This document shows, one piece after another, positions 8,801 to 60,100 of a stretch of 64,000 nt of DNA. The notes under the pieces were generated by a model, which saw only the letters and a list, made by a program, of their open reading frames with translations, had not been told where the DNA came from and searched no databases. Origin of the DNA: Liolophura sinensis (Eukaryota > Mollusca > Polyplacophora > Chitonida > Chitonidae); assembly GCF_032854445.1 (NCBI RefSeq), contig NC_088300.1, forward strand, positions 19,389,608-19,453,607, read 5' to 3'. A program made the translations under genes and the position numbers. Position 1 is the first letter of the stretch, and every line of letters starts with the position of its first letter.

Positions 8801-11800
8801 CATTCAGACACAAAACCTAGCAGGCCATTCCTCTCGCTGAGACAATACCCATGCTGTTTATTACCACACTATGCATACAGTGGTTTGATAGGACACTTGT
8901 CCAACCCCTGCTAGCAACCTCGAGGTGAAGTCTGTACTCTGGCTTACCAGCTGAGATTAGACAATGGTCTAGACTGTTAGGTAAACTAACACTCTTTAGA
9001 CAAACTAACATATCTGTCTCTTCTACCACGAACTCCTCACTTGGTATCTTTCACGTAAAACTATTCCCTCAACAAAAACACATGTCAGGTTACCAACTCA
9101 GCCACTTCACAGATTTATTTTCTTAACTGTCTAGGCTGTATAACATTTTTATTAATAAACACCTTGTTCCATGCCAAAAAGCTGATAAACTTTTTTAAAG
9201 TCTAGGCCTATTACAGAGACCTACAAAATGACATTGTCTGCATTATCCCACTTTTTCTGGGGTGGGGGGTGGGGGGTCTAACTTTACTGTCTTCATAATG
9301 TGTTCATCTAACATTTATCTATATTCTGATTCAGGGGAGTGTTCAGGGCAACTGACATTGGATCATACACAAACTAGACCAAATGACTCATCTTCAGTCA
9401 AGCTAAATATAAAGACTACACCTTTTGATATCAGAAAACAAAATGTCCTACACACAACTGAAAAAAACATTCTGACATAAAGGCCCATGGACAGTTTCAT
9501 GTAAGCTGACTTCAAGTACTGATGAGTGCTTCTCTTAAGTAGACTGCAGGGATTATTACATGTACCTCTATTGTACACATACTAAAAGAGCACTGCGATA
9601 TAATACAGTATGCATGTATTCCTGTTACCAAGCCTTTTAGGTAGCGTTTCATGGTTTACTAAGAAAGACAAAGAAATGATGACAGATCATGGAAGATTTG
9701 GGGATAAATACGAGTCCTTGGTATGAACAAGAATAATGTCCTAAAGGAGATGAATGGTCACTCATGTTTAACTCCACAGGGTAAAAATTCCCCAAATACA
9801 TCTCCATCTTCCTAACTGTACCTAAGACCTATATGTACAATGCAACTCTACAAAGGGAACTTTATCTATTCCGCAAGAAAGTGTGATGTTTAATGTGGCA
9901 GGTTCCCTAGGCAATGAGGACAAATTCTGAATCCGTAAATGGTTTCTTGACAACTTTTAAATGTTTAGAACCAAACTATATAGGGAAGACCAGTAACATG
10001 TTGCACAACCAGTAAGTACATGTAAATACTTATAGTGTCTACTGTAACAATTTCTCATGTACATGTATTGCTGTTTTCTTGAGAGCCCAGTATCATGTTC
10101 TAGAATGAATGATAATGGAATAATGCCACATCAGCAATACTTCAGCCATACTGTGGTGAATCACATTCTAGATGTATGTTTGCTACATGCATTTAACACA
10201 AAATCCTATAAAATATGTAATGTGATTAACGCAACCATGATTAGTAATGAAAGTACATCACAGGCATAAACAAAGAAAAACACAACAAACAAACCGTGAA
10301 TAGAATGAACATAAGACTGACAAATAAAACAATCCAAAAAGACAGTGTGATAAGATGCAGCTTATGCTCCTGATGCACAGCCAGCTAGTGTGTCTGAGGA
10401 TGTACCTTCTTCTCTGAGGGCCTGGATAGTGGCCTCCTTCTTGTCCAGCTGCTCACTGAGTCTGGCAGCAGCCTCCAGACATCAGATGCTTCCTCAAGTT
10501 GACTCTGTAAGAAATGTGCACAATAGGATAACGTTGCCTGTTATAAATGTGTTTTTATAAAGTTTTAAAATTAAAAAAGTTAAGTCTATAATCATATTTT
10601 CTACACATGCTTTCTGATCAATAATTGAAACTGTCATAAGTCTTATTTCTCTCTGTTTATTAAGTATAAGTGTAAGCTGATCATCCATACCTTAGTGTCT
10701 GCCAGTTCTGACCTCAGTCTGGCCACTTCACTGGTCAGCTCAGCGATCCGGGAGCGATAGTGGTCTGTCTCTGTGGCCAGCGTCGACTCCCTGTCTGTAA
10801 CCCACAAAACCATGCTAACATGTAATATGGACATCACAGGGTCCCCAGATTACAGGTTTTGGGGAACTTCTGAGAGAAACATTTCACTACTGTCATCACC
10901 ATACTGGACATAGTTTACAGTTAATCAACAACTGTAATTTGCAGAGTATTGATGTAAACTAGGAAGGGTGTAATTTGCTTAAATTTAAGCATTTAATGAA
11001 AAATGTGAACAAAAGCCTAACTGGTGTACAGTATTTCAATGATACGCGTGACCATTTCCCAAATTATCACACTGCCATTGCTGCTCTACTTTTGTCTTCT
11101 TTGCTGCAAGTCTTTTACTTTACATTTCCTTCCCTTTTTTACAATTTTTCTGCAGGACACATTTTTCAGCAGTTTAAGTCTAATGAATGCCAAATTCCAT
11201 TCAATGTCCACATAATGATAAATGCCTCTAGTCAGGCCTCAATTGTACAAATCCAAGAAGAAGAAAACATCTTTCACCTCATCATTATACTCACCCTGCT
11301 GAAACTGTTCCAGCACCAGCTGAAGGTTAGCCAATGAGGCACTGTACTGCTGACATTGCTCCTGGAGTAGCGCCACCTGGTGGTAGGCAGCATCTCGCTG
11401 ACCAGCAATGGCTACCAGTTGTTGCTGTAAACTCTCTAGCTGCTGACCAGCGTGAGCACTGACAAAACAGAAGATCAGCGATTTAAAACTGTGGCTCTTC
11501 AATACGAAATACTCTCACCGCCCTTACTGAAATACACAGTGAAGCACATATATGGTAAGCCTGGCTGTTTTAAAACTGTCAAACCTGGCTGTCAAACTGT
11601 ATGCAATTAAATACGGATTGCAACCAAATACCAATTACAATGAGAAAAAATAAACAAAGAGACCAAAATAAAGAAAAAAAACCTCATTCATACAAATCAC
11701 TACCTGTCCTCTCACTTAAGAGACAAATATACATAAGAAAATGAAAAGTTAGCATTAATTTGTGTAGAATTACAGAGACATGCAGGCTCATACTCACTTG

Positions 11801-14800
11801 ACATTTTCCACAGCGGCTGATGAGGACAGTACTTTCTCCTCCAGGCTTGCCAGTCTATTCCTCAGTTCCTTCTCTCTCTCCTCAGCTGCCAGTGCTTCCT
11901 GTGTGTACCCTTCCTCAATCTGTACACACAAATATGCATACCATATAATATAGCAGTCTCCCAACAGAGTACACACAAATACCCATATCATGAAATGTGC
12001 TTATCTTCCTCAGTGAGTACACACAATACCCATGTCATGTAATGTGTCTATCTTCCTCAATGAGTACTCACAAATACCCATATCATGTAATGTGCTTATC
12101 TTCCTCAATGAGTACTCACAAATACCCATATCATGTAATGTGTCTATCTTCCTCAATGAGTACTCACAAATACCCATATCATGTAATGTGCTTATCTTCC
12201 TCAATGAGTACTCACAAATACCCATATCATGTAATGTGTCTATCTTCCTCAATGAGTACTCACAAATACCCATATCATGTAATGTGTCTATCTTCCTCAA
12301 TGAGTACTCACAAATACCCATATCATGTAATGTGTCTATCTTCCTCAATGAGTACTCACCAATACCCATATCATGTAATGTGCCTAACTTCCTCAATGAG
12401 TACACACAAATACCCATATCATGAAATGTACCAATCTGTTTAACATGTACAAATTAAAATCCATTTCATGTAATCACCTGTCTTACTAGTCCTTGCCACG
12501 GTGTACACACAAATGCACATGTATACGTGAATTATCATTTATTTTCTTACCACTATCCTGAATGACACATTTGAGGAAAATATTGTAATTTCAGTTAGCT
12601 TTATCAACTATATAAGATCTCTTAATAGAATTTGGTTTCCCCTGCACTCTGCCCAGTTTCCTCCCACCATAATGCTGGCCGCCGTCTTCTAAGTAAAATA
12701 TTTTCAGTACTGCGTAAAAGAGGAAATAAATAAATAACAAAATTTGCAGTGATTTTACGGTTCAAACAATTACATTTACAGGTTAATAGTTAATCATGTC
12801 TTCTTCCTTAACTTATCCTCAACATTCAGTTGAGTACATACCTGAAGGAGATGATTCCTCAGTCTGTCTAATTCCCCACTCAGTTTCTGTTCCTTTTGTT
12901 TATGTTTTTCCACCTGCGGGAAACGGGCGCAGTATTATATATGTTAACACAATATTAACATGCAGTGTTCACATTATTATGCTGAATGAACACATTCCAC
13001 CACCAGATAGTTAGCTGAATATAGTATATACGTCAAAAGATATATGTATGCAAATATATGGTACATGCATACTGATAAAAAAAAGTAATGAGGAATACTT
13101 ACTTCAGGTGACAATGAATGAATGAATAAATGAATGACTGGAGTTGTAATGCCACATTGAAAATACTTCAGTCACACCCGTCATACATATGTTTAATATG
13201 TCAATTTATGGCAATGAACATCCCAAAGCAGAAGGAGTGTTAACTCAGAGTGGTTGTTGCAAGCTTAATGCGACAGAACTGAGCAGAGTAATGTCTCACC
13301 TGTTCCCGCAACTGGTCAGCCTCACCCTGGCGCTGTCTCAACACGATCATCAGCTGATCCTTCTCCTGCTGGAACGCCTGCGCCTGCTGATTGACAGCCT
13401 CATTATCCCGCAGTAGCCGGTCCAGTTGTCCTTCCTGTCCATCACGCTCCTGTAACATGGCAGTCAGTGTGGCGCATTTCTCCTTCAGCATCGTCACCTC
13501 AAACTCCTTCTCTCTTACAGACAGCATCACCTTGTCATTGGCTTCTCGTAACGCCTGCATCTCTGAGGTCTGCTGTTCCTTCCCCTGCTCTGCGTCGACG
13601 GAATCCTGACGTGCGACCTCCACTTCTCTTCGCAAACTCTGCATCTGGAATGACAGGTGCTCCACCTGTTTTTTGTAATTGTTTTTCTCAGTTTCTAAAC
13701 TATTTGTGGACAGTTCCAACTCATTGAGCCTTTGATTTAGAGAGTTTATTTTCGCCTCCTTTGTTTGAAGAGTTTGCTGACATTGCGTAAAGCGTTCTTG
13801 CAGTTTGCTGGCTTCCTGAGCCTTCATATTATACATACTAACATCAACTGTGTCTGATACATTCGACCTCTGCACCAGTTCGCCATATTTCACTTCTAGC
13901 TCGGTATATTTCTGCTTGTAATTTATCAGTTCATTTTGTGCCTTCAGAAGGGCTTGTTTTTTGTCCTCGAATTCCGGCACCAAATTTGCATAGTCTCTTT
14001 GCACATTTTCAAATTTTTCATTTTCAGTATTGATGTAGGCAGTGAGTCTCTGGACTTCATTGTGGTAAGCCACACTCTCCTGATGTTTCTGACTGACAAA
14101 GGCCACCATCTGGTCTCGCTCAGAGTGGAGGACAGCCAGTTGTTTGGTCAGGTTTTCCTTTTCCACCATTAGACTGTTGATCCGAGATCCGTCCTCAGAA
14201 CTATCCTGTAACACCTGAACCAGTGTTTCATTCTTCTGACGCAAAGCCTCCATTTCCACGTCCTTGTCACGTATAATCCTTGATAAATTCTGAACCGCCT
14301 CCTTTTGCATGTCTTCGTTTGGACTACTTTCTCTATTCCGTACCAAATGATTATTGTCCTGTGTTAATTTATCTAATGCTGTTTTCTCAGCTGATATTAT
14401 ATTCATAAGTCTATGAACTTCACTTTTTAATTTACTAGATTCTCGAGACTTCTCGTTCATCACAGCTAAAATTTGTTCTCGTTCAGTCTTGAGAGAGCGG
14501 ACTTCGTTCTCTAGCTTATGTACCTCTACAAGAGTTCTCTCCCCTCCAGAGGTCAAAGGTTTACTCTCTAACATCTTCATGAGGGAGGTGTTACTGTTCT
14601 GCAGTTCAGTAATCACCTGATCTTTGCCCTTGATGATACTCTGTAACTGTTCTATCTCTGCCGTAACACTATCATTAGAGCCTTCTGACCAATCACCAGA
14701 GAGACGACCATTGACCTCTGGAGGACGACTTTCCCTTAAATCAATGTCTACTTTGTTCCTAGCCGGACCTCCAGCCTCAGTTTCATCTAAATCCAGTGTA

Positions 14801-17800
14801 CCCTTCTCAGGGTACTCGATAGCTGGGAGGTTGGACACAGGAGTTGCGCCATTGTCATTTTGCTCCAGCATGTGACGTTTGTCTGACTCAACGAGCGACG
14901 TAGCACGGTGCAAGCGTTGCGTGACGTCACTAATCTCTGCCTCTTTCTGCAGTGAGCTCTGTTGTAGCACTGCTATCATGTCATCCTGTGAAGAGATCCT
15001 ATGAGCATACTCCTCCAACTCCTTTCCCTGAAGGTGCGTTTTGTTGTTTAGCTCTCGTATACTGGTCTCTTGGTCTCCCACCAGCTGAGTCAGTCTGTCT
15101 ACCTCCTCTTCCAGGGCTATGACCTTGTCTCTCGCCAAGGTCAGCTCTGACTCCATGTCTGTCATCACGTCAAGGGTCTGAGTTTCCAACTTCTCACTCT
15201 CTACACTTGAGTCTTCACTTGTTATTTTCGTTACCAATTCACCTTTCAGCTTTTGGTTTTCCTCCAGTGACCTACTCAGCTGAGTCTGTGTCCCTTCCAC
15301 CTTTATTTCTAAATCACTCATATTCTTCTCCTGCTCTTCAATCTTTCCTGTCAGGTATAAATTTTCTCTTTTCAAACTCAAAATTTCCGCTTCTTTTTCG
15401 TTGATCAATCCAGACAGTTGCTGCTGACTCTCTAAGGCTGACTGCATGGTTTCCTTGGAATCTTCCAGCTCAATTCTCAGAGTAAGGATCTCCTCCTCTA
15501 ACTGTGAAATCCTCATGTCCTTCTCATGGCTTACCATTATACTCTTACTGTGTTCTTCCTGGAGAGCAGTGGAGTCAAGAACCTGCCCTTTTTGTATATC
15601 ATGGATATAATTCTCATAGTTTTTGTGCTGCTTTTGAAGTTTTTGTTCCATCTGGTCTAGCTCCTTTTCTAACTCAGTCTTTTCTGTGCGGAGTGCTTCA
15701 AGCTGTGTGTAGAGAGCTTGGTTCTCTGAGCGCAATGCACTCACCTCCGTTGCATCAGCACCAGAGCTCAGCTCAACAGTTGGCTGCGGTCCATCCTCCA
15801 ACACTGCCTGACCGCTGCGCAGACTGACCACCTCAGTTTTGGATAGATCAAGCTCTGCCTGCAGAGCTGCAATCACAGAGTGCTGTGTCTGGTTGTTTCT
15901 CTGGCTGTCGCTCAGCTGACATTTCAGCTCCTCTAGCTCTGTCTCTAGGTGCTCCTGCGTGGATGAGTCAAATGCCGTGCTCTCCTCCAGAGCTTGTAAC
16001 TGCTGTTCTGCTAGCTCCAGCTTCTCCATGGTGCTCCTGTACGCTTCCTCTGCAGCCTCGCGCTGGTGCTTGAACTCGCTCAGCTTTTCCCGCGTCTCCT
16101 TGACCTCACTCTCCTGTATTCTCACCTTCTCTTCTAGCTCTTGCTTGTCCATGTGAAGCTGATTGAGAGCCTGTGCCCCGTCAACAAGCCGCTCAGACTG
16201 CTGCTCCTTCTCTACCTTCAGTTTCTCGTACTCGCGCCGCATTCGTTCCAGCTCCAATGACACTTCAGACAGGTCATGTGACTGATCACATGATTGGTCA
16301 GCAGCTGCGGTCTGGAGTTCCTGCAGCTGTAGGTTAAGCTGGTCAATGCAGGAGTCTTTCTCCCTGACCTGGCCCCTGAGCGCATCTGCCTGTTGCACCA
16401 GGCCATTCCGCATTCGGATCACCTCTCCCATTGCTTCATTATGCTGACTGTCTAGCTCCTCTAAGCCTGCCTCCAGCTCAGACTTCTCACTAGTCAAGTT
16501 CAGCACCTCTTCAGCCTTCTTTCCCAGCTGATTCCTCAGCTCCTCGAGCTCTGACTGGATTCCTATCCAACAACAACAACAACAGAGGTATGATATTGAC
16601 TGGGCTCATCAACAACAACAACAACAGCAGAGGCAGGAGTCTGACTGGGCCCCTAACAACAAGAACAACATAAGCAACAGGTAAATGTTCATCAAACCAA
16701 TAAGCAACCAACAAATGCCCAGAAACAGGACTCTGACACCACTTTACAGATGTTAAACATTCTTTTCCCAGCTCATCATAATAATGTAATATTAAAGACT
16801 GTACGATTATAAAGCAGAGACAAATACTGTAGTACTGTACACGTTTTGGGCTTTTTTTGATGTAACAATGACTTTAGGTCCTTGCCACCTCACAGGATTA
16901 AAAAACATATTCAGCCTCCCCAATCAAAGAAGGAGTTTTTGTAACTCAAAATCTCTGTTAGATGAAAAGAAAAATGAACAACAAAAAAACTGTTCAGAAC
17001 TGAGATAGCATGAGAAGTAAAGAGGGCATTACACTGGCAATGAAGAGTTTCCCCGGCGAAAACCAATAAATGATTTGTCTTAAACATAAACAGGCATCTA
17101 AGACATATGAAAATCAAATGCTCCAGAACAAGCTCAATCTCTTTGAGCACATACCTTCAGATTGATCCAAAGCCTTCAGTAACTCTTCATTTTTCTTCTT
17201 CAGGATTTGTATTTCTTCTTCTAACCTTGTCTGTAAAAACAAAGTACAATTTCATATATATAATCTTGATCAAGTAATACTGAGTCACCGGCAACACTTA
17301 CACACTTGAAGAGATAAATGTGAACACACCCGTTAAATTAGCTATTTATGTATTGAAGATGGTAAACATTTATTTATTTACTTGACTGGTGTTTTAAACT
17401 GCACTCAAGAATACTGAAATTTTAAAATGGCAGCGGGAAACATCACGACATGAATAAAACAGTTATCAGAAACCACTCTCACAAAACTTAGTACATGCAC
17501 TTATTAATTACAACTTATTTCGTAAATCACATCACTTCATAATGAAGACATTACCATATCTATAGAAAATGAACAACATTTCAAATACAGTTAAGGCTAA
17601 GCTTACAATCTTATCCTGTAATGCTGTCCTGTCACTGTCCATGGGGCCATCAGTCTTCACACGTGTCTGGAAAATATGACGTTTATAACTTCAAAACATC
17701 AACAAAAGAAATTTTACAGTGCTCACTAAAAGCACTGATCATATATAACTGATAACAATGAGTATTAACCTTCAAAGGGGTACAGCGTTAACACTCGCAG

Positions 17801-20800
17801 ACAGCGTAGAAAGGACGTTCTGGATTAAAGAATCTAACACTTGTTACACTTGAGTGCACAGCAAATAAACCTGGACTACCCACAATTCAGCTTAATCTAA
17901 GCTTGTCTGTCTCACACAACAGCCTATCAGTGAAAATTCTGAAGTCCTGTACGAAATTTTTTTAACATCAAATATGGCTAAGAAACATAAATTACTGTGC
18001 ATTTTGTTTAAAAAGTAATTTTAATATATCAGATACATTATGTAGCTAACAATGACAATATTAAGAATCTACGCTATGAACACACCTCTTTACTTTGTCA
18101 CAGAAATCTGACAATAGCAAATGCCACTAAAACTACTTCAGACATTAACTGCTCACCGATGCTGTGGTTAATGCAGCCTCTTTCTCTCGTAACTGTTTGC
18201 GAAGTCCCATGAGGACTTCCTCAAGAGCCTCCTTCTCCACCTGCCAGTCAGCCTTTAGACACTCATACTCCTCCAGTTGATCCTGGTACACCCTCAGCTG
18301 ACTGCTTAAATGTCGGAGTTCTCTCCCCTGTTCCTCCTCCTTGGCATCTCCACCAGGCCTGTTCTTTACATATGGCGTGCTAGCTACAGGTCTGAAAGCA
18401 GCAACCACGCCCACATAAGTTCTGACAATTAATCATGACAAAAAGCTAACTGTACTGGACATTCACAAGCATTACCATGCGTTTAATAAAAACTTGTCCT
18501 CATAAAAAACATGTGCCTTGACAACAAAGATAAATTTTGAAAAATCTGTGGTCTCTTTGATCTCTGACAATTTGGAAACTTGCTAACGCTTGATTGGTTT
18601 ATTTGACTGTTGCTTAAGGATATACTGAAGTCTTTTTCTCACTGACACAATGGTGGTTAGTGATATGAACACGGGTGGAGGAAATTGACATACCCACAGT
18701 AAAGAAATCACCTATGATGGGTTAGTTGTGAGCTCTCCTGGAGTTGTTGTCTATACAGAATACCCACTTACTCCCACCCAACACATACAGGTATTCGGCT
18801 CACCTGGAGTTGTTGTCTATACAGAATACCCACTTACTCCCACCCAACACGTACAGGTATTCGGCTCACCTGGAGTTGTTGTCTATACTGAGGTCCCATT
18901 GGCTCTCTGTCTCACTCAACCCTGTCTCATCCTTAGACTGGAGGACTTCTACACCTGTACATAGCACTTTGTGTTTGTTAAAACACATTACAAAGTCAAC
19001 TTCAGACCTAATATGTGATCTGTTTTTACACTGTGAATGCCATCTAACCGACATGAAGTAATGTGTTTACCAAAACCTTCACTCAGACAAATTTCAAAAT
19101 GGCAGCATGACTAGTTGTATTATGTTCAATCATTTGGCCTGACCATACATTTCTACACATATAAAATGTGATCTAGTTACATTAGCTACAGAAGCTATAT
19201 GTACATGCAGTCATACATAAAAGTGGCCAGACACCTAAAGGTGATGTCTGATGCAGCACAATTAATTATTTCAGACATGGCGTTCATTCATCTACAGGAA
19301 AAAAAAGACACTGAATCAAAGGTGTCTTATTTTGACTCTAAATTTACCTTTCTCATGCAAATCTTTGAATTTTTCTTCTGCATCTTTCCTCTCTTGCTTC
19401 AGTGTAGCAATATCTCTCTCCAGCTGAGTGACATGCTCCTTTTGCTCTACCATACTCTGTTTTAGTGCTGTGTTTTCCTGTTGTAGGCTGTCCAGCATTG
19501 CTGCAGGGTAAAATCAAACACTTCTCACAAAACTATTTGAAATTTTACAATATTATATACATATATATAAATAATTCTGTCTCAAGTCTCAATGACCAAT
19601 ACTGATGATAAAATGCAACAAAAGGCTTAAAAAACGAATAAACTATTTACAACATAGGCCTCTGTGACTTGCACTGAAAACACCTGGGCACAAAAATACA
19701 CTTTGTAAGTAAGACAAAGAGTGAACTAATTACAGTTTACATGTACTTCATATCAAAAAGGAAAACCCATCCTAATTGAACACAGCAGAACATTACCAAG
19801 TAACCTGAGCTTCACATGCAAAAGGCACTTAGTAAAGTTACATTGAGGAAAAATTGCTGACACAAATCCATTTTCGTTACCCTTGGTGACCTCCAGGTTC
19901 TCTGGACTGCCCAGTGATTGAATCAAATCTTTAGTCTCCGATGCCAGTTGTTGCTCAGACTGTTCCATATCTGATATTTGTTTACACAATTCAGCTTTCT
20001 GAAAATTCAAAGCCATCCAAAGAGAATGAGACATTCCAATATACGATAATCAGATGTATAAATCAGATTTCAAAAGAAATATATTTGATATTTACAGTAA
20101 ATCAACTACCAAGTATCTAACCATGTACAATGTCAACAGCATGGCAGGGGACATCCTCTAATGTTCGAGTTTCCAACAAAAAAGTCACCCACATGGACTG
20201 TCAGTGAAAAAATCTCCTATCAGTCATCATATCAAGAGGAAACAAAAGAAAGAAACAGGGGTAAAATAAAACATTTATGAAAAACTGAGAAATTAAGCAG
20301 CCAGAGTTATCTTCCCCTTGTTAATGCTGACGCTGACCTTAACACCAACAGCTATCAGTAGATTCACCAACTTGTCTTTTTCGTGTAAAACTTTGGATTT
20401 TCGTGCCAAAGTGTCGTCGTTCATCTGGTGACGAAAATGCTGAAGGTCACTCAACACTTCAAGAACATGGGCCTAGAAAAATGAGTAGAGACTCCAGAAT
20501 TTTGTAGTGCAGCAACCCTTACATAAGATCATATGATGTTCAGTTTATATGTTTCAAAATCAAAGCCAACAGGTATATAAAATAAGATTTATAATTGAAC
20601 ACAACATGTGACACATGCACTTGTCTGAATATTTCCTTTGTGACAAAATGTGACCGTTTTTGAGAAGACCTTGTTTTTATAGTTATATATCTTTAGACAA
20701 CAAAACTACAAAAACCTAGCCTAAAACAATTCCTTATCACTATATGCGAAAATAAAACATTCTTCAATATTGTGACCTACAGTAAAACAAAGCTGGAATG

Positions 20801-23800: not shown

Positions 23801-26800
23801 ACAGGGATGTTGTTGACTATAGTTGAAAACACTTCTTGCCCATACAAAGTGGTGTTGATGTCAGGGAATCTTTTCCACTCACCTTGATTTCAGTTTGTAG
23901 TCTAGTGATGTCCTGGCTTTCATCTTTTCTCAGAAGGTCAGTCTTCAATCCTCCCTAACAACAAATATTGACATTTTAATTTTATTAGTCTCAAAAACAA
24001 TCTATGCAGTCTTTCTTGGCTTGGAGTTTAACGTCATATGACAATTGATGCTTTGCTTACCGCACCCAATGCTGAGAAGTTTACAGTGCTGCATCACTCA
24101 AACCCCAGGCCAAAGAGACCAAACAGGATGCCCACATGAAGTCAAAGTTTTCTGACAAAGGTGCAGAGACTACTCCTCTAATGCAGAGCTCTAAGGAAAG
24201 CAGTGCCAAAATTACCCATATAAAAATCTTACATATGACTGGAATCAGGATTGAACCCCAGATTGAGACAGATGGTCTATACAAAACACCTAAGCAGCCC
24301 ACATGATTACAAATGGCACTGCTGGGATATAAAGACACACGGGGACAAGATCTATACAAGAGGTTATATGACATAAAGAGAGATTACAAAGTTTTGTGGG
24401 AGTGGACTTTCCCTTGTGTTTCTCTGCAATATGCTGCACACAGACACAGAATGCTCCTGACAAGACATGACACAACAAACACCACCAACAGAAGACATTA
24501 TGGTTGGTCATTGTTGTCAAAGTCAATTGAACATTAAATAGTTATATATAAACTGTAGGTTCAGTTAAAGATGGAGGCTGGTGTGCTTCAGAGATTTCAA
24601 GATAACATACAAAATTTTAGTTATATCTACACATGAAGCAGAGATCTTCAAAGTAACAGCAATTTCAAACTGGCTTCATGCAATGTATGTGCAACATAAC
24701 ATGCACCAAATACAGTACATTATGGTACATGGCACATTGGGTAATTATGCAGTGTCGTGACCCTAGGTGTCCTACTATATAATGGGATTCACGTCTGCAC
24801 CTTGGACTGTGAGAAAAAATAAGAAAATTATTGCAAACTAACAATGAGATATATAAGGCTTGGTAGAACGTGTTGGCAGTGTTGATGTGTCTGAATTTCC
24901 CTGACCTTAACATGGTTCCCTTATGAAGTCAGGATTTAACCAGACAGCCATCTTGTAGGCCCACAGTGCTCAGGTGAAAGCAAACACCAGCTTTGTGGTT
25001 CAACTCGCCACTGTTTGCCCAGCAGTACTCCCATTATGAGTGATATAAATCTGTCGCCAACTGACCCAGCTGTCTGAGGCCAGCCTTCAGAGCCTACACC
25101 TGACAGACCATATCTCCAAGGGGTAGGGGGTTGGGGGTATGGGGTTGGGGCTATGAGGATGGGTGGGGTGACCTACTCAGATTAGTCCACAGCACTAATA
25201 CAGCTACTTTACCCTCTGGGTAACCAGGGACATATCCCACATGTTAATATAGTCATTTTACTCCAGGTAACCGGAGCTCTACCTCAATATCCCTGACAGG
25301 TGGGAGAGCTGTGCACCTCTTCACCTTAAACGCACAGAACCCCCACACCACTTAAGGCTTGCATCAGATTCACTAAGCAACACACTACACAAACCACGTG
25401 TATTAGTGGCTTCATAAACTTGACTAATGTATTTGTGGGCTCAAAAGCTTCCACAAAAGATTATTGGGTATGATGTTATCAAATGAACAAAACAACTCAC
25501 CAACTTGAATGAGGATGCATAACAAGTAATACATGTATGTTTTAACACAAAAAGAGATATATGATCCTTGGCAGAGTTTAATAAAACTTCCACAATACAT
25601 GTATGTTTTAACACAAAAAGAGATATAGGATCCTTGGCAGAGTTGATAAAACTTCCACAATACATGTATGTTTTAACACAAAAAGAGATATATGATCCTT
25701 GGCAGAGTTTGATTTATTTATTTATTTACTCGATTGGTGTTTTACGCCATACTCAAGAATATTTCACTTATACGACGGCGGCCAGCATTATGGTGGGTGG
25801 AAACCGGGCAGAGCCCGGGGGAAACCCACGACCATCCGCAGGTTGCTGGCAGACCTTCCCACATACGGCCGGAGAGGAAGCCAGCATAAGCTGGACTGGC
25901 AGAGTTTGATAAAACTTCCACAATACATGTATGTTTTAACACAAGAAGAGATATATGATCCTTGGCAGAGTTTGATAAAACTTCCACAATACATGTATGT
26001 TTTTAACACAAAAAGAGATATAGGATCATTGGCTGACTTTGATTAAACTTCCACAATACATGTATGTTTTATCACAAAAAGAAATATATGATCCTTGGCA
26101 GAGTTTGATAAAACTTCCACCATACATGTCTGTGTTAACACAAAAAAGATTTATGATCCTTGGTAGAGTTTGATAAAACTTCCACAATACATGTATGTTT
26201 TAACACAAAAAGAGATATATGAGCCTTCGCAGGGTTTGATAAAACTTCCACAATACATTTATGTAATAATATGTACATATATGTTTGCAAATTTTAATGT
26301 CACAAATATATGCTGCTAAATGCAGTATCCATGCTACATGTCCATAATATGTGACAGCATAAGTTCCAACATATTTATGTGCAATAAAATTGAAGAGCAT
26401 GTTTGTTGTATATATTTTAACATGCTTTATTGATTTCACCTGACTGAGTAAAAGTAATTTGTACTGCTAAATTTATGATGTTAATGATTTTATCATGATG
26501 TTGTGATATCCTGTGTGTAAGACAGGCCTGTTATTCAGAAACAAGTCCATATGTGCTGTGGCCAGGAAAATGGAGAGCTTTTCACATAGCTTTCACACAT
26601 ATATCACACAAAAATCCACACAGATACTGTACAATTACCATGAATTATTAAAACTGTTTGATCTACATGTAGCTTTGACAGCTTACAAACTACCACCACT
26701 CAGGAATATATTATAAAGTGGACACCAACTGAAATGGTAATAACACATAAACTGAACAAACATGTGTTGTATGTCTGTTTCAAACAGGATAAATCTGGTT

Positions 26801-33266: not shown

Positions 33267-33324
<58 letters not shown>

Positions 33325-39300: not shown

Positions 39301-42300
39301 AATCACAGTGACCTGAGTAACCATCACTCGACATACCTCCAAATTTAAAGCCGCACCCAAAGCAGTAAGAGCTGGATTTGACCACAGAACCTCTTTGTTC
39401 AAGGTCTAGAAGTAGTCGCAGTGAGCCAGCACTTTAATTAAAGGACCCCGCTGAACAGGTAAGCAGGTTAAATTCTAAGTTCTTGTTCACATGTTCATAC
39501 AAACTGCTGACAAATTATAGTTTAGTATGTAGGACCTAAAAACATTTTTGCAAAAATACCACATAAGGCTTTTTATGTGAGTGTGAGGTTAGTTCGTGCT
39601 CTGGTAATTTCTCATTATGGCATGAGGATGAATGAACACTGAAGCTGCTACACTTATCATGTCAACAAGAACTGAATACTTAACTTCCTGCTTACTACAT
39701 GTAGTACACAAGCCACACTTAATATGGCAACTCTGCCAGAGGTAACATTAGCAGTGACTGCCTTAATACATGGTGAATGCACCACTGTTGTAGTGTGAAA
39801 GGTGAAGATGGAAAAATACAGAAACAAGCACACTCATTTATGCTAGTGGAACTACAAACCCAAATCTTGAACTCCAAACTTCTGCTTAGATCACGATAGG
39901 ATATCATACTGAGCTGGTTATACATGTAAGTTGGTATTACTATGCTGCTGTATATGTGTACATATTATACCTGTATGGGAATACCTGGTAAAAAGCATGT
40001 CTTACTCATGGACACTTTGACTTACATGTATGTCATCAGTTTGCTTACATGTATGTTAAACTTGGCTGAGTGAATCAGAGAGGCAAATACTGTGATTCTT
40101 CAACCTTTTTCGATGTTTTCAAGATGTCTAGTTCAGTGTATTCTGAGGGCATTATTCTTTTCAGACTGATAAAATTATACTTTTTGTGAAGTGCTAAAAT
40201 TGGTAAACCCTACCAATGAAGTCTTTGTTTGAAAAATCAAATTACAAAAATTGCACAAATCACATCAGACTTTACTCTTGCATATTCGAAAATATTGAGG
40301 AATTAAGGTAATACTGTTTTAAGATCCATTTTGCTCTGTGCACTGATCTATCTGACTGAAACTGATGAAACATAAAAGTCTTAGAAGCGGTTCATCTCTT
40401 CAGGATGACATTAATACCTTTGTACTTGTACATTGGGCAGTATTAAATACTACACGCAGCCAACAACACCTGTTTGTTCCTCGGTACCTGGCTACCTAAA
40501 TCACCTTACCTTTCTGTATTGACCGTAGCGTATTCAGCGCTAGTCCCTGCAGTCGTACAGACGGCTATATCAGCTATCAATAGCCACAATCAATGGTTTC
40601 AGTGAGCTGTAGAGCACTGGAGCATAATGTTGTGTTTTGTTGCTTGACAATACCGCAGAGCACTGTTAATTTGATGCGTGTCATCTAATCTACTTTAGCT
40701 TTATCAGGTGTTCTCAGCTCAAGGGGTTCTCCTCTATTCACGGTAGATCTCTAGGATACAAGGATAGCCTGTCTGTAGTGGTACAACCTCCAAGTCTGTA
40801 TGCCACAATTGTCGCAGTACAATCCATGTTACCTGTGGCACATATGCCTAAATGTACCCCCACACACAGTTTCAATATACAATGATGTATCATTAACTTC
40901 CTTGTGCAAACTAAGGTGTCCAGGATTTTGTACAGTCGAGCCCACCTCGTATACATGTTTATGTGCACATAGTAGTGAACAGATTCTCACCATGTGAAGC
41001 AATACAAGAGACCAGAACAACTTCAGGATGAACTCCCAACAGTTCACTTTTACATGTGTACATGGAACAAGCATAATACTTAAAGCTAAAGAAAACATGA
41101 CCATTGATATGACAGTATTTTTCTGAGGTTCTCTAGTGCAAATTTTATTCTCAGAATCCTTTCAAAAATAGATTTCAAGCAACTCTGAAAATTGAATCAT
41201 ACAAATTTACAGCCCTTTACGTCTTCAGTTGTATATTTTATCACAGTATAATACCAGGTTGATTCAAGCCATAAATCTCATGCATGTTTAGTTTGGACAT
41301 AAACTACATGTATACACAGTGTGCAAAGTTCAGCACATCTCCACAAAGTACATCAATGAACATTTATGTAAGTACCAATTCCCAGCAAAATGTAGATCAC
41401 AACAAAATGTGATCTTGTGTGGCACTGAATCATCTAAAACTCAAAGCAGTAGGACGTAATAAGTTGTGGCAAAACATTAGCAATACACACAACGCTCATG
41501 TCTCACTGTACAAGCTATGCTGTATTTTAAGAGGAATTACAAGCTGCTTTAACACTGCACTACTGAAAGAAAGTTTCCTTTAACTGATGGTTTAGACCTT
41601 TAAACAGCTTAACCAAGAAAACTGTACACTGAGCAGGTCCATTCCACACATTCTGGTTCAGCTCAACTAAACTACATCTTCAAGTGATAAATGAGGGTAT
41701 TTTATTGAAAACAGAATGTATACAAATAAAACTGTTCAGTCAATATCTACCTGGACATTTTGAAAACAAATATACCTGTAAAAGATTTTCATGCGACTTG
41801 ATGCTGACTTGATGCAAATGAGGTCATCAAGGGAAATTTAGTTCAGTGAAGTCTCCAGCTACATGTACATGTAGTAATGAAGTGTGTATAAGTAAAATAA
41901 CTACTTTCTGCAACATGCACGGTGATCTACCTACATGTACAGACATGTAGATTATTTTTTTCTCCACGTTTAACTCACAGGCTACAGTAATTTCACTATT
42001 ATTTTTTTTCATTTAAGAAAAAATTTAGGCAAGTTGGATGGTTGAAGAGATCACAAAATACAACTTAAAAAGTATATACATATACATGTGTAATTACAGA
42101 CTAAGAGAATTTATATGCAATGACCAACTGCTAAAGAGCCATCCAATCTAAAAGAGCGGATATGAACAACACATGGATCCATATAATAATGCAATGAGTA
42201 CTTTGAAGAAATGCCAATCTTACCTCGGATTTCTGAGAATTCAGCACAATCTCCAACTCCTGGATCTTGGCCTTGGCAACTTTGAGTTCTGTGACAGGAT

Positions 42301-48300: not shown

Positions 48301-48609
48301 CTCCACCTGCACTCAGTCAACAAGTTTTCTAATAACCTGCATTATATCAGCATACTGTGCACATTTTCATTCTACACTGAGCACAAGCACAGATGTTAAT
48401 ATACAGGTAATACACATATTCATACAATGGTTACTGACACAAGTGTACTAGAGTGGTCTCCCTTGAACTGGTTTCCTCTGGTTAGAGATCTACATGTACA
48501 TCAGAAATGGAACAAAAATATCATGTCTTATGTGGCAAACAGTAGTATAGATCACCTTTATGACAGTGTCTAAGATGGTACAAAGTTATTTGCTGACTTT
48601 ATATGTGTA

Positions 48610-48666
<57 letters not shown>

Positions 48667-51868: not shown

Positions 51869-52110
51869 GGTGATGCCAAATTTTGAAATAATTTATCTCT
51901 GGTGTCTGTCATGTACAAGAGTCTTTAGAAGCAACGGTGTCCGCGAATCGCCTTATTCACAACATACAGCATGTTGTACTTGCCAACTCGACGGCCGCCA
52001 TGTTTACCGACATATTTCCTCGTTGCGCATGCTCACTGGTGTAGTTTGATGCACCCTGGGATAGTAAACATTTCGCACGTGGCAAATCTGTCACACGCTC
52101 GTAAAGGGTA
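51869..52110 (-). promoter_or_regulatory. Probable TRIP11 5' UTR and core promoter
   Basis: Just upstream of the start codon on the minus strand lies a region richer in CpG than its surroundings. It has a YY1-like GCCGCCATGTT (51995-52004) and an NRF1-like TGCGCATGC (52024-52032). Such sites are typical of TATA-less housekeeping promoters. The transcription start itself cannot be read from sequence. Confidence 0.4.
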
Positions 52111-52629
52111 ATTCGAATAGGGCGCCTCCTTTGAATCCGATCTAAACAAAGTGTGCAGACAGAGAGACAGTTGAATGGATCTACTTCAGTTATGTTTTAT
52201 TATCACGCGGTTATGTGTTTACAGATTTCTGCTGTTTAGCCGAAGAACAAATGTATGACTGATCGTACACAGGCGCCTAATAGTGGGCGTGGTCGATGGC
52301 CATGTAAATGTATGTCATGTTACTGCAAGCTGCGTAAACGTCATGTAAATCACAACATAATGATATGCTCCGGGCAGTTTATAAGAGGACTGTAGTTTCG
52401 CCCGCAAGACGTTTGTTCCAAAAATATACTATCTGGAGGTATGGTGTACGTTCTTCAATGTTCTGTAATTAAGGTCAGCTCAGATTGTTTGACTAATTGG
52501 TGTTTAACGGATACCGTACATAAAAATAACGCTAACACGAAGATTAACAGAAATTATGAAAGTTATGAAAAATGAAAAAGGGGAAAAAAATCGCTGTTAA
52601 GGAATATTTTCTAATTACCCCTCTGTTTT

Positions 52630-52794
52630 CTACCAATGTTCGGAAATGGGGACATCAGTGAACTTATTGGGAATACGGCACCAGCCCCGGCGCCCCTCAT
52701 TCCTCACACAGTTGTTCTGACAGCTATCACCGTTAACGTCACGGCTACAAGCAACTGAATTACCAGACTGACTTCCGGAAAACTGCAAATAACA
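52630..52794 (-). CDS. Possible terminal exon of a cysteine-rich secreted peptide
   Basis: The acceptor is a pyrimidine-rich stretch ending TATTTGCAG|, and the reading continues to TAG at 52630-52632. The peptide has SQSGNSVACSRDVNGDSCQN followed by NCVRNEGRRGWCRIPNKF. Four Cys occur in the order C-x8-C-x3-C-x9-C with GRRGWC near the last. A CxxxC helix followed by GxC is the layout of cysteine-stabilised alpha-beta and macin-type antimicrobial peptides, but two or more expected Cys would have to lie upstream. No signal-peptide exon was found. It sits between TRIP11 and the next gene. Function is an inference only. Confidence 0.38.
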   Translation of the reverse strand, partial: CYLQFSGSQSGNSVACSRDVNGDSCQNNCVRNEGRRGWCRIPNKFTDVPISEHW

Positions 52795-52848
52795 ATCGTT
52801 ATTACGCATCAAGAAGAAATGTAAGAAGATTTTTTCACTCTTTAACAC

Positions 52849-54023
52849 ATCATCAACTATATATCAGGGAATTAAAACCGACACTTTCACTTGTAGTTTA
52901 ACTCGGCACTCAAAGACTGCTGTCTTGTTTGTTGCTGGAGTAAACTGGAATGTTCAGAGTAAACCACCGCGTCTGTCCAGATATCTGGCTAATATATTGA
53001 CTTATCATCCGATTCGAACGCTCGACCTCATTTGTCAAGAGACACACAACCTGGAGAAGGTTCCGGGCAAAATCGCACCGGCATGTAAATTTCCTTTTTT
53101 TTTTCTTTTTTAATTTAATTGGTGTTTCACGCCGCACTTAAGAATATTTCACTTACATGACAGCGGCCGACATTATGGTGGAAGAAAAGCAGGCAGGGGG
53201 AAACCCACGACCATCCGTTGCTGCTGGTTGCTGTCAGCCCTACCCACGTACAGCCGGAGAGGAAGCCAACGGAGAGTCAATTTGTTACAACCAGTTGGAA
53301 AAATAACATTCCAGACATATCACCCTTTGGGCGGCTGCCAGGATTATGATGTTATGTTCTATGCGGCGCCGAAAATGAGATTTAAATCTCGATCTGACAA
53401 AATGTGATTTCTTCAAAATGGAGGACATGAGGAAATGACCTCATCGCGATGATTAAGACATGTAACATTGAATTTAACTAACCACATACAAAACATGAAA
53501 AGTGTTGCCATATTTCGATTTGGTGCAAAAAGTCACATTATAAAAGGTCAAGTTTGCATCACTGTGTGACGAAGAGAAAAAAATGGAAGAAAGCTGAAAA
53601 ATGAGTCACGTGACATTAAAAATCGCTCCAGCCTTAATTATTCGGAAATCAAAGCTTTTTTACGATAAAAGTATAGTCCTACTCACCGTGTAACAACATG
53701 TAGAATTTCTGTCCGATCGGATCGGCAATTTTTAAGAAGACGATTTTAAAATGTTTCTATAAAATTGCAAATGCATGGCCGCTAAACCATATACAAAATG
53801 GCAAGGTAGCGAGTGTAACACGCCATATCTTCAGTATTGTTACTGCTTATTTTTGGTTTCTCTACCTTTAGCGCTTTTGGCGATATTGGAGCTTGAAATC
53901 AGCCAACTGTGCTAATCTTAACAATTTCAACAGGTGATGTCACTCCAAGAGGGCGTGGATCCCTAATTAATAAACACACAACAGAGTAAAGAAATAAAAT
54001 GTTATACTGTACAATCTAAACTA
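52849..54023. other. Intergenic stretch left of the second gene
   Basis: Apart from the SINE at 53104-53275, no coding signal was recognised. An upstream exon of the cysteine-rich peptide would be expected here or further right but was not identified. Confidence 0.45.
53104..53275 (-). repeat. AATAAA-tailed SINE, reversed
   Basis: TTTAATTTAATTGGTGTTTCA, CGCCGCACTTAAGAATATTTC, ACCCACGACCATCCG and ACGTACAGCCGGAGAGGAAGC in the expected order. The tRNA head is missing. Confidence 0.78.
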
Positions 54024-54029
54024 TTTATT
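54024..54029 (-). terminator. Poly(A) signal of the second gene
   Basis: TTTATT on the plus strand (AATAAA on the transcript), 72-77 nt beyond the stop codon at 54101-54103. Confidence 0.6.
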
Positions 54030-54100
54030 CAATACATTTGATTACAATTAAGATATGATGGAAGTCTTTAGGTATGTGTCTGTTGGTATCTGACATGAAT

Positions 54101-57100
54101 CTATGTTTTATCTCGGACGCCTGTGTGCGTGGGCCTTCTCACCAAGACCAGTGCCCTTGATTCCAACTCTGTGGAATCGGAAGAACTGATGACCCGCTGG
54201 TGACCTGGAATAGAGTTGGGAATAACTTTAGTGTTGTTTTAATGATAATTCATGCCTATATTGCTGTTAGAATTCCTTCTATGATTTCCTTCCTGTGTAA
54301 AATGTACTGATAAATACATAATAATCAACAAAGACACTTAGTCTATATAAAAATATGAATCAAGAAAATATTTCAAACACTGATTGTGTTGGTCAGTAGC
54401 TAGTCTTCTGTTTGATGGACGCTCGACAGCCCGCATCGCGTAAGTATGGTTCAAGACATATGACAAATATTTACCTGTATTTTTCGTAAATATTTCACTT
54501 CTTTTCTTTTTGCGTGCCGCAGCGGAGACCTTAAGGAAGCTCTGACAGGCTTGACTGGGCGTCATGGATTTGGAACCCGTTCTCCGGAGAGAGCGATAGT
54601 CCGGTGTATACCGAGGTGTACCTTCAAATTAATAAGGGCAAGCATTTTTGCAGAACTTGAAAAAATATTTCACAATTACAAGAGGAAAATTGTCTCTATA
54701 TAGATAACTATAAAAAAAAAACTTGCTCACAAATGACCTCTAGGATTTAAATTGGTAAGTCCCTCTAATGAGACAGGTGAATATTAGTCACGAGTTGTTA
54801 CAATGTGCACCATATAAATGCGGGGGTATTTACTCTCTGCATTTCCAAAAGAAGAGATCTTGAACGCTCTATAAAATGCAAGAAACTCGAGTTTATGCGT
54901 TTGCGGTATGCACTGGCGTGATCTACAATACTAATAATTGGTGTTCAGAATTTATAGCAATGCAGTTTTCATACGATACTATATTTGTTGCTACAACTTA
55001 ATTGTCACGACAGCTGGTCACAACGGTCTGTCGCGCACGGGTGTAGCTGAATGAAAACAGATTATGTTCTACTCCTCTAGACTTGTAGTGTTCGACTGAA
55101 GTATCGTTCTCGTCCACACTTTAAGAGGTATGTGACAAAGTGCTACTACAAATGTCAGTTGAACTCTCACCGGGGGTCAGTCTGCCTGCAGGGGTCAATA
55201 GGACTCGATTAAGGGTTTTCAGAGGCGATCGCTTAAACCGGATGGCCCCCTGTTCCACAGGTGTTGGAGGTCGACCGCTTGGTGAGGAGAAACGGCCATC
55301 TTCGTCATCCATTATACTTCCGGTGCATTCACTCCTTTGCTGCTGCGCATCTGGCTCCTCCACCACGGTCGCTAGAGTCTGACTTGGAGTTAAGTGGTTC
55401 ACAAATATGTCCCCTGAAAATGTGATGTCAAAGCCTTACTTTAAATTCTGTGGTACAGTATATGTTTGCCCGATAATGCTTAATGCAAAAAAGGTGCTTT
55501 ACAGAGTCTGTATTTTGGGGGAAAAACATATATTAAATACCTACTTATAGGTGGAATCTGTTACGCCCAAAGTGACTAACAATAATACCTGATGACACTT
55601 GTTTTCTAAAGTTGGGAACACAAGCACACCTGGGGCCGATTCCACAAAGCCATTTCTGAATTTATTCAAACTTTAAAAGCTCGTTACAGTGCGTAGTTTT
55701 GGGGTACTAAACGTTAGGATTTTAACACATTTGTCTTAAGATATTATTTATGAGTTGGTTAAGATTTTATCGTCTATGGCGTGAAAAGAATTGTAAAATA
55801 GTATTTCAGATTTTGACTCCAGTCGGAAATGGTGCTGTGGAATATGTCCCAAACAGCACTTGCTCACTTACCTTGCTCACCAGTACAGGTTTCATCCCTT
55901 GTTGTGATGGGATCTAATGGCGTCAGACGGCTGATCTCAGGAAGTCGTCTCGGACTGTTTCTGAGGACTGTGGTGTCGCTAGAGGTCACTGATAACGGAA
56001 GTTTAAGTCGCGGTGTGCAGCTTGTCTCTTTCATCGGACTCTCACAATGCGGTGACGGATTAGATCTAGAAAGGATGGGGAGAACCCTGTGGTTAGGTGT
56101 GAGTGGGTGAGGGGAGGCATCCAACTTCTTAAAGGTTGCGACGCGAGAATGACAATCAGAACGGCTCCCAGCGTCCCCCTCGTTAGGTAGCGTAACCGTC
56201 TCTGCACAACAGAAGTGAGGTACAGTGTACAGTAAGCGAGACTGTGTAATACGGCAGTATCTACAGAACAGAAATTAGATATAGTTAGTAACTCTGGGTA
56301 ATATAAGGGTCTCCACAGAACGGAAATTAGATGTAGATAGCAACACTGGATAATATGACGGTCTCTACAGGACAAAAGTTAGATGCAGTTAGCAACACTG
56401 GGCAATATGACGGTCTCTACAAAATGGAAATTAGTTATAGTTAGCAACACTGAGTAATATGACTGTCCCTACAGAACAGATTAGGAAAGAGATTTTGATC
56501 TGCCCAGCTGCGGATCAGAAGTAATGGAAGATATAGCCAATGACATGGTCAGTGGATAATATGACGTTCTCTACAGAGCAGAAATGAGATATAGATAGCA
56601 ACACCGGGCAATATGACGTTCTCTACAGAACAGAAGTTAGATGCAGTTAGCAACACTGGGCAATATGACGGTCTCTACAGAATGGAAATTAGTTATAGTT
56701 AGCAACACTGAGTAATATGACTGTCTCTACAGAACAGATTAGGAAAGAGATTTTGATTTGCCCAGCTGCGGATCAGACGTTATGGAAGATATAGCCAGTG
56801 ACATGGTTTCGCCACAAAATGTAAGTTAAAGGTAGACCCAGCGACATTGAGCAATATGACGGTATATGGAACAGATATCATAGAGCCAGCGGCATTAGGC
56901 AATATGACGGTCTAAGGAACGGATGCTTTAGAGCCAGAGACATTGGGCAATATGACGGTCTACGGAACAGATTATAGAGATAGAGCCAGCGGTATTGAGC
57001 AATATGATGGTCTACGGAACAGATATTATAGAGCCAGCGGCAATATGATGATCTGTGGAACAGATATTAGAGATAGAGCCAGCGGTATTGGGCAATATGA

Positions 57101-60100
57101 CGGTCTACTGAACAGATATTATAGAGCCAGCGGCATTGGATAATGTTATGAACACAGGCAGAAGAGATAGTGACATCGGGTATGGCTACAAACCAAAGGC
57201 GTGTACCCCTAAAAGACAAACAAATGCATTATACATGTGATTGCAGAGCACTTACTGCGCGGTGATATGCGTTGCTCAGTGACGGGCATGGCCTCAAGTC
57301 GGACTCGGGGAGCGCTGGAGGAGTGGTGTAAAGGGAAACCCTTCTGGGGCGTGCTGGAGATATCCTGGAAGGATGGAAGGATGGACATGCAGCATGCAGC
57401 ACGAGATGAAAAATCCTGAACGTGTCATGACAGTAAACAGGTAATCATGTCTACACAATATATAATGAAGCATTTATGTATCAACAAACAGAAGTGTATA
57501 TGTATGATTTCTGATTGACTGGCTTTCTTTGCACCGTACTCGAGAATATTTCACTTATACGACGGCGGCGAGAATTATGATGGGAGCCCGAGGGAAACCC
57601 AAGACCGTCGGAATGTTGCTGGAAGACCTTTCCACATACGGTGGGATGGAAGCTAGCATGAACTGGATTTGAACTCATAGCGACCGCATTGTGGGCTGCT
57701 GGGTCATTGCGCCGCGCTGGCGTGTTAACCCTCTCGGCCTGGGAGGCCCCTTGTATGATTTCTGAGTGTGTTGGCTGTCATATTACAGATCACTATAACT
57801 CTTAGCCAAAGGGGTGAATTTCTGTTTTTTCACAAGTGATCTTACGTCCCCTCTGCTTCATCTCTCATAACCGTGGCAGGCATTATTTGTACGTTAAATA
57901 TACCTGAACACCGCGTAAAATAACAATGAAATAAATACGTAGGCGAAAAAAAAAATTAGAATGAGCGATAGCAAAGTTGTTACCGTATACACCGATTGAT
58001 AGAGAAATAAATCATTTTAATCCCTTTCTCTGATAAGGCGGTATCGATGTACAAATAAGATATTATATAAGCAAAATTGGCCACTGTAATGTTAACGATG
58101 GAATGGTATGTGTGCTACATTTGTGTCATTTCGCACCACTATAGCCAATATCAGCTGAGTAATTGTAAATACATAAGACGCTTTTCTCACCTTACTTCGT
58201 GAAGAAATGTGGACTTTCGTGTATTGGGATTCTATGTCCTTTACGATAGATGCGATGTCAGCACGTTTTATGGCGTCCTTTATTTGCTTGGATGGTGGAT
58301 TTTTTGTTATTTCCCTGTCAAAGAATATATATTTAAGACACAAGAAAATGCCTATGGCGAAGTCAAGAAAATGAGTTACACTAAAAAAATAATAATGTGA
58401 AAGTCTGTTGTCTGAGAGGTGCTAGAATGTGTTCTATTACTATAACATAGTAATGCGTCGTATCAGTGTAACGTTAAGTTAAATTAATAGAATATTTGTG
58501 CTACATCTATCAGAACAATCTGCTGCAATATAACAGAATACATTCTAGAATGACTCAAGCAACAAACTTTCTGTTAAACTTAACAGATTATTTTTTGAGA
58601 GTAATGGCTAAAAGAACACTTGGGGATATCGCCACATATACATGCACCGCTGAAAATATAACGTTTCAGGATTTCTTTATGTAAACCCTCCTTTGATCCA
58701 TGATTCAGGCCCCAGACCGTTTTTAGTTTAGACGAAAGATGATATAATAGCCTATTATGTATCTAATGCCGGTTGGTAAAACATTTAGCAATGGTGGAAA
58801 AGCGACATTTAACGGCTGATTTTGCGATGTAAGGAAACTATGATTATACCTGTAATACAGCGTAAGGGAACTCAGGCCAAGCATGCGAACTTCGACCCAA
58901 GGAAGACACGACTCACACAAGTACGAAATATGTAAAGTATTATGGTGGCTGAAGTATACGACCATTAATTAGCACGAAGGTTCTGGGCACTCACCATTGA
59001 AACCCAGGTATACTGACTGGAGTATTCTGTATATAAACCGTTATCACCTCTTATCAATTTACATCTCTCATAGAAGTGTTTGCTTTCTAGAAATGATGTA
59101 TTAACTCACATGTCAGATGATTTTATTTTTTTGGCAAAGTTTTGGATCGATGTGAGAAGTAAACACAAGCGCTCTCTCTGTTTGTTACTCCACATTTCTT
59201 GTAAATGGACAGCGTACTGTGAACATAAAAAGGATCAAAGACATCGAGGCCGGCAAGGAATAATTTTTAAACATGATGACAGACAACTTATGGAGGAAGG
59301 TCCTAAGATGAATAGAAACTAAACTAGGTGTTGTAAGTGCACATACATACCAAATGCAACTGAAAAAAAGGTACATTTTTAAGCTTACCTGTGCAACATG
59401 CGTTATCATTATTCGCGAATATACATTCATGTAGACACTTTTAAAATTTAAAAAATATTCTTGATTGCATATGTTTGGTTTCATTAGTATTTAATTTAAA
59501 AAAAAATTTCGTGGGTATGTTTCTTTGCGTAAGGATATCGGGCAGAGCGCATCCAACATCGCTCCTCGGATGTATATATATATATATTTATGCCGGTTAC
59601 CTGCCGGTTCAGGATTACCTGAAGGAACTCTCTCCTCTGTGACCGTTCTTTCCTGATAGTCGTGATGTACCGGTCCAGTGTGGCCATCGCCTGACTCTGA
59701 CACTCCGACATCCGACCAATGGCGATGTCAGAATGGCCCTTAGCATGCGTGACGTCAGCCAATACCTGCTCCTTGTCTCTAATCTTCTTCATGCTCTCCT
59801 GGTATTTCTTTCATTTAAATCAAATTATAATTGAAAGTAAAAGGTTTATTAGGAAAGAGTTTGTATCGTTTTTTCATGATGTCTTTTGATTTGTGGCAAA
59901 ACAACTGAGTTTGTTGAGAGTTTAATGCGATTAAAAATATGATTAAATTAGTATTACTGAGGACATTTAGTAAGTTTCGTCACGTTTTCAGTAATGATCA
60001 TATACATAGTCAAAGGCATGCAGTGAAGAACAAACAGTGAAAGTTAAATGTGAAAGTTAAGTGGCTGAAACTCTTAAATAAAAACTAATGAAGATTCCTG

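Follow-up and report, generated by a model that had tools for sequence, protein, structure and literature searches.

Minisatellites that meet exon ends in the chiton Liolophura sinensis can carry those exon ends, splice site included, within their repeating units. We analysed a window of 64,000 nucleotides of this genome (assembly GCF_032854445.1, contig NC_088300.1, positions 19,389,608 to 19,453,607 of the forward strand), which contains two genes on the minus strand, one that we take to be TRIP11/GMAP-210 and a neighbour. An earlier note on this stretch had described four minisatellites at exon ends of the two adjacent genes; all four are present, and each meets a minus-strand exon end. We consider it very probable that these arrays are 'mirage' minisatellites, a name given to tandem duplications of intron/exon boundaries in amphioxus: a local tandem duplication across an exon end was tolerated and then amplified within the intron. 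Junction-spanning arrays are general in this genome, as a sample of exons from outside the window shows. A process that favours splice junctions as the sites of such arrays is possible, being suggested by part of our counts and contradicted by others.

Exon ends in the window were predicted from reading frame and splice motifs, and the roughly 37 candidate exons recognised by eye give about 70 junctions. The four arrays and the predicted exons beside them are as follows.

11910-12429, minus strand: 48-bp minisatellite of about 11 copies; the exon-most copy spans the acceptor, and 10 exon bases lie inside the array called by Tandem Repeats Finder (TRF)
11798-11919, minus strand: predicted TRIP11 exon with its acceptor next to the 48-bp array (exon 20 in the numbering of the earlier note); open frame with acceptor and donor
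16546-16670, minus strand: 45-bp repeat; the TRF part is 16568-16670 (2.3 copies), and the alignment extends over the acceptor (exon start 16562) to 16546
13300-16562, minus strand: large coiled-coil TRIP11 exon with its acceptor next to the 45-bp array; predicted from reading frame and splice motifs
18732-18888, minus strand: 66-bp repeat of 2.4 copies that spans a donor; 19 exon bases are followed by GTGAGC, and the last copy reads GAGAGC
18870-18956, minus strand: short predicted TRIP11 exon with its donor inside the 66-bp repeat, first intron base 18869; 5' end approximate
56241-57139, minus strand: minisatellite of about 52 bp with a higher-order period of 258 bp; a degenerate copy extends to the true acceptor at 56201
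55872-56201, minus strand: 330-nt exon of the second gene, with its acceptor at 56201; predicted from reading frame and splice motifs
57256-57364, minus strand: second-gene exon upstream of the intron with the ~52-bp array; predicted from reading frame and splice motifs

Does the tandem unit contain the exon boundary, as had been claimed? For each array, the 40 bases straddling the junction, and the 20 exon bases alone, were aligned to the array and compared with 4000 control words from the same strand. No control word scored as well as the straddling 40-mer for the 48-bp, 45-bp or 66-bp array (0/4000 in each case), and three of 4000 did so for the ~52-bp array. When the 20 exon bases were used alone, the controls scoring at least as well numbered 0/4000 for the 48-bp array, 32/4000 for the 45-bp array, 0/4000 for the 66-bp array and 2532/4000 for the ~52-bp array. 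Because of these counts, we place exon sequence within the unit of the 48-bp, 45-bp and 66-bp arrays, and for these three both the claim and the resemblance beyond chance on which it depends hold up. They do not extend to the fourth. The ~52-bp units consist of a pyrimidine tract, an acceptor-like TAG and then AGAC-like sequence, so that the acceptor does lie within the unit, but the likeness to the junction at 56201 comprises that acceptor and three aligned exon bases, and the exon part is no better than chance.

One of the four junctions is a donor and three are acceptors, and the state of the repeated splice signal varies among them. AG is kept in five of the six recognised copies of the ~52-bp array and in none of nine recognised copies of the 48-bp array, where TC stands in its place. 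One of the two extra donors in the 66-bp array is intact, and in the 45-bp array, judged by eye, AG is present in both copies with the exon start at 16562. At least five further minisatellites in the window touch no recognisable exon end (7208-7576, 25528-26264, 33798-33937, 37036-37930 and 61153-61233). The one at 37036-37930 lies in a TRIP11 intron and measures 895 bp, with 47-bp and 51-bp units in alternation; about 145 bp separate it from the closest exon's donor.

Outside the window, we examined 227 exons of four unrelated families (dynein heavy chain, kinesin, myosin and SNF2), located by Pfam-family search of the genome. The dynein set was examined first; its 86 matches yielded 44 that lay in the retrieved sequence and had no stop inside, 43 of them usable. 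For the other three families, 190 of 271 matches were kept (no stop inside; one intronless SNF2 match excluded), and 184 of these were used in random order with 500-bp flanks. Splice sites were placed by a position matrix for which these same exons served as the training set, and ends at domain edges or with weak scores were dropped, leaving 172 donors and 203 acceptors, or 375 junctions. TRF called 83 arrays, 32 of which are cut by the end of the stretch. One donor was first called inside an array and then set to the exon-most site; the counts of coverage, decoy copies, unit matches and TRF scores precede this change.

Arrays with a period of at least 15 cover 23.6 of the 259.4 kb sampled (9.1%), and 15 arrays straddle one of the 375 junctions by at least six bases on each side. 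At a threshold of at least five bases, the straddling arrays involve nine donors and seven acceptors. Arrays at junctions were also sought through a 26-base junction word (12 exon and 14 intron bases), and a copy had to match at 19 or more of the 26 bases and at 8 or more of the 12 exon bases. The junction word recurs in the adjacent intron at 18/375 junctions, as against 1/941 mismatched pairs of junction and intron. The clearest view of a unit comes from a kinesin gene on contig C1, where a 63-bp unit is made up of ~43 coding bases from the very end of a motor-domain exon, the donor and ~20 intron bases, with about eight further copies in the intron. Among the 83 array units, the 20 listed of 23 unit-to-unit matches all fall within one stretch or two neighbouring stretches, and the other sampled arrays therefore look independent of each other. 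Ten arrays with at least three copies were compared for signs that the boundary copy escapes homogenisation. Five have copies that clearly resemble each other more than the real junction, which is what exchange within the array would produce; for the remaining five the two similarities are about equal.

Amphioxus provides the closest known parallel. Tandem duplications of intron/exon boundaries were described there in Adh3 and the globins BflGb6 and BflGb9 (PMC3087553), and further cases are PGBD5 and troponin C (PMC3902484). Passages of the former paper report AG/GT signals in many but not all repeats, take the Adh3 data and globin reverse-transcription PCR to suggest that regular splicing is undisturbed, and propose that introns may be gained from mirages (PMC3087553). 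Judged by their sequence, the chiton arrays have the structural features of this class. Their units combine exon-end and intron sequence (clearly in three of the four window arrays, and at 15/375 sampled junctions), they occur on both donor and acceptor sides, and splice signals are present in many but not all units (88/102 in the sample; 0/9, 1/2 and 5/6 in the window). They differ in having a mollusc as host, in their frequency of ~4-5% of sampled junctions, and in being known here from genome sequence alone. Among the papers listed in a search of the open-licence literature, with subscription journals outside its scope, none reports mirage-type arrays in molluscs.

In a related process, new introns are gained when AGGT proto-splice sites are tandemly duplicated (Rogers 1989; Gao and Lynch 2009; both as cited in PMC3087553); the potato RdRp gene is described as a case (PMC4974935). 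As in the chiton, the tandem duplication includes a splice signal, but there the duplication makes a new intron, whereas the extra chiton copies sit in existing introns. The human factor VII gene has a minisatellite at an intron donor site, with the splice donor included in the unit. The chiton arrays share this donor-containing unit with the human minisatellite, which differs in being a case from a single vertebrate gene.

How might such arrays arise? We propose that the introns of this chiton often yield local tandem duplications, and that now and then a duplicated segment would by chance lie across an exon end. The original next to the exon would keep its normal splice site, and the duplication would therefore do little harm. 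Slippage or unequal exchange could then amplify it within the intron, giving units made of an exon end, a splice site and a piece of intron. Copies inside the intron would be freed from coding constraint, and their splice motifs would remain unpurged, so that splicing would have to choose the exon-adjacent site among equally good decoys. Junctions may also be hit somewhat more often than an even placement in introns predicts, an expectation that depends on the null model.

The fate of the extra splice sites fits this proposal. We tallied splice dinucleotides in the 16 sampled arrays with an edge no farther out than +10 and one or more recognised copies of the junction (4/20 arrays with such an edge lack a copy and were left out); the row of one array (7/7) was made at its mis-called donor, inside the array. 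AG or GT is kept at the junction place in 88/102 copies, compared with 78% for the remaining dinucleotides in these words, and the scores of many decoys resemble that of the real site. Decoy splice dinucleotides are thus not purged. The suggestion of the earlier note that decoy sites are tolerated near junctions is supported by this sequence record. Per array, the splice dinucleotide is kept better than the others in 11 cases, less well in four and equally in one; at a Wilcoxon p of 0.13, we do not claim positive selection on the decoys. The idea that decoys must be disabled is ruled out, because splice dinucleotides are kept slightly above other positions. We also considered a frame-keeping role for unit length, given that 66, 45 and 48 are multiples of three, and rejected it: sampled straddling units have no multiple-of-three bias.

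Are splice junctions preferred sites for these arrays? The occurrence of four in one window had been read as suggesting a process that favours junction sequences, or selection that tolerates decoy sites there; ~4/70 window junctions have arrays, close to the 15/375 of the sample. The check proposed at the time, comparing array edges and exon boundaries with randomised positions, was carried out on the sample and gives an excess or none depending on the null. A prediction and a literal placement null were stated after the dynein set and before the kinesin, myosin and SNF2 sets (hereafter the three families) were fetched; the prediction concerned junctions crossed by at least six bases on each side, array coverage near and far from the junction, and a piling of edges at -5 to -60. 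An edge-density expectation, an edge window of -45 to +20 and variants of the placement null were devised after the prediction.

The edge-density expectation takes the density of exon-side edges of arrays at 20-300 bp inside the intron and multiplies it by unit length. On this basis, 5.5 straddling arrays would be expected, compared with 15 seen (p 0.002); for the three families the figures are 5.3 expected and 13 seen (p 0.008). Edges at -5 to -60 number 15 and are denser than at 20-300 bp (p 0.009; in the three families 13, p 0.024), and for the window from -45 to +20 the ratio is 2.7 (bootstrap 1.5-4.6). Placement of arrays that are free to run off the stretch agrees with these figures, with a null of 5.3 and 0/300 runs reaching 15 (three families: 4.9, with 0/300 reaching 13). 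When arrays are kept inside the stretch and may overlap the exon by at most one unit, the null rises to 10.6 and 20/300 runs reach 15; in the three families, the same rule gives 14.9 against 13 seen, with 235/300 runs reaching 13. Limiting exon overlap to 30 bases leaves nine arrays in both sets. The nulls are then 3.0 (2/300 runs) for all families and 3.1 (1/300) for the three families when arrays run off, and 6.6 (65/300) and 10.6 (229/300) when they stay inside. For dynein alone, two arrays are seen, compared with 0.5 running off (18/300) and 1.4 inside with a fixed overlap limit (203/500). The nulls conflict because 32/83 arrays are cut by stretch ends: arrays kept inside are pushed onto exons, which raises the null, and arrays that run off lower it. 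The true placement null lies between the two versions.

Several observations weigh against our account, or against the junction preference that it allows for. The literal placement null predicts 23 straddling arrays within the same stretch and 15 when pooled, compared with 15 seen, and so shows no excess. Array coverage is lower at the junction than in the intron: 4.9% at 0-10 bp, 6.7% at 30-60 bp, 10.8% at 200-300 bp and 13.7% at 400-500 bp. Intron words taken 60-300 bp inside have a further copy in 24-38/375 cases, as against 18/375 for junction words. Two of the four window arrays are poor examples, the ~52-bp array having almost no shared exon sequence and the 48-bp array no AG in its recognised copies, and no junction copy is recognisable in 4/20 of the sampled arrays whose edge lies at +10 or closer to the exon. 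Finally, exon calls in both the sample and the window are computational.

The first three of these observations speak for the strongest alternative, that junctions are not special: in a genome so rich in minisatellites, contact between some arrays and exons is unavoidable, and selection acts only on the extent of their intrusion into the exon. This explanation is quite plausible, if a little short of probable, and under it the arrays remain mirages in structure. It is favoured by the abundance of arrays in the sequence sampled (9.1% of 259 kb, and 11-14% of the intron sequence at distances of 200-500 bp from an exon) with a smooth fall towards exons, by the smaller number of copies of junction words than of intron words, and by the literal null of 15-23 against 15 seen. 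It is opposed by the edge densities (15 against 5.5, p 0.002; 13 against 5.3, p 0.008) and by the running-off null of 5.3, which 0/300 runs bring to 15. The claim of a process that favours junctions thus draws support from edge density and the running-off null, and is contradicted by the literal null and by coverage that rises away from the junction. Because the nulls disagree, we have lowered the probability that we assign to a junction preference. In our view, intron minisatellites are abundant in general and the junction arrays are their outermost members on the exon side; a surplus at junctions, about threefold at most, may come on top. Should the excess be real, it could reflect a mutational preference linked to transcription or splicing, a longer recognisability of arrays at junctions, or a favourable redundancy of splice sites.

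The second of these possibilities, taken as the whole cause of the excess, is a detection bias. Selection would hold the exon-side copy constant, so that arrays at junctions would stay recognisable longer; constraint acts on the exonic portion of the real copy, and pairs that include it should diverge more slowly. We hold this explanation to be improbable, given that several similar copies are present in many of the straddling arrays, which would be detected even if the constrained copy were ignored, and that the edge excess is no smaller at a TRF score of 200.

Could the arrays have come first, the exon boundary sliding into them when a unit with a good splice site came into use? Two of the window arrays would suit such a history. 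The 48-bp array has no AG in its other recognised copies, and its AG could have arisen in the exon-side copy; the ~52-bp array shares hardly any exon sequence. In the sampled genes, however, the median gap between the end of a domain match and the called junction is a few bases, and the kinesin unit repeats motor-domain coding sequence, which makes the exon the older part there. In that one closely examined example, sequence passed from exon to array, and as a general explanation arrays that preceded their boundaries seem decidedly unlikely. That a dispersed repeat or transposon carrying splice sites inserted beside these exons is scarcely credible: dispersed elements do exist in the window, but whole-genome searches with two of the four arrays, those of 48 bp and ~52 bp, rule this origin out, the only match of each in the 609-Mb genome being the array itself, with no copy from a second haplotype, and the listed unit matches in the sample stay local.

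With the chiton arrays, mirages, described from a few amphioxus genes, become known from a distantly related phylum, and with a frequency in a sample. Introns with up to ~20 close copies of the real splice site and its exon context constitute a natural experiment on site choice among equals, and junction arrays are raw material for intron gain and boundary shifts. A bolder generalisation is that splice junctions are preferred sites for the birth or survival of minisatellites, perhaps in chitons generally, and that rows of competent decoys therefore stand at the start or the end of thousands of introns. We consider this doubtful. If it were true, the spliceosome would have to reject decoys by position, or might use them successively or as spares.

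The abundance of minisatellites also bears on annotation. In the published repeat table, 0.08% is assigned jointly to simple repeats, microsatellites and RNA, and 14% to unclassified repeats, as against the ~9% of minisatellite in the 259 kb sampled. The sampled minisatellites may be hidden in the unclassified class or have been missed. Given this share around exons, compared with the published table, gene models near such arrays may be misled.

Within the window, the identity of the first gene rests on a GRAB domain (PF10375; 33.1 bits, cut-off 26) near the C-terminus, after a long coiled coil, in a peptide joined by hand from exon translations; a GRAB domain identifies the gene as TRIP11/GMAP-210. 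The domain is encoded as follows.

6121-6639, minus strand: two predicted exons (6639-6558 and 6235-6121) coding for the GRAB domain of TRIP11/GMAP-210 (PF10375, hand-joined peptide)

The large TRIP11 exon has two weak matches in PDB. A Pfam search with the second gene found no family above cut-off.

The window also contains dispersed repeats. One element is present in two copies, at 1752-2117 and 61572-61924, that are 97-99% identical and 60 kb apart. Short dispersed elements in families of 99-191 nt, 60-86% alike and possibly short interspersed nuclear elements (SINEs), lie at 25713-25811, 39212-39310, 53098-53196 and 57500-57598, and further copies of short dispersed elements, again possibly SINEs, at 27384-27533, 34476-34724 and 62129-62377. 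At the right edge of the window, 186 bases are exactly repeated at a spacing of 446 bp (63369-63554 and 63815-64000), possibly as part of a larger repeat. In the sample, two myosin matches at C1:26642195-26643386 cover profile positions 118-152 and 121-152 and lie ~1 kb apart; they are possibly alternative exons of one gene.

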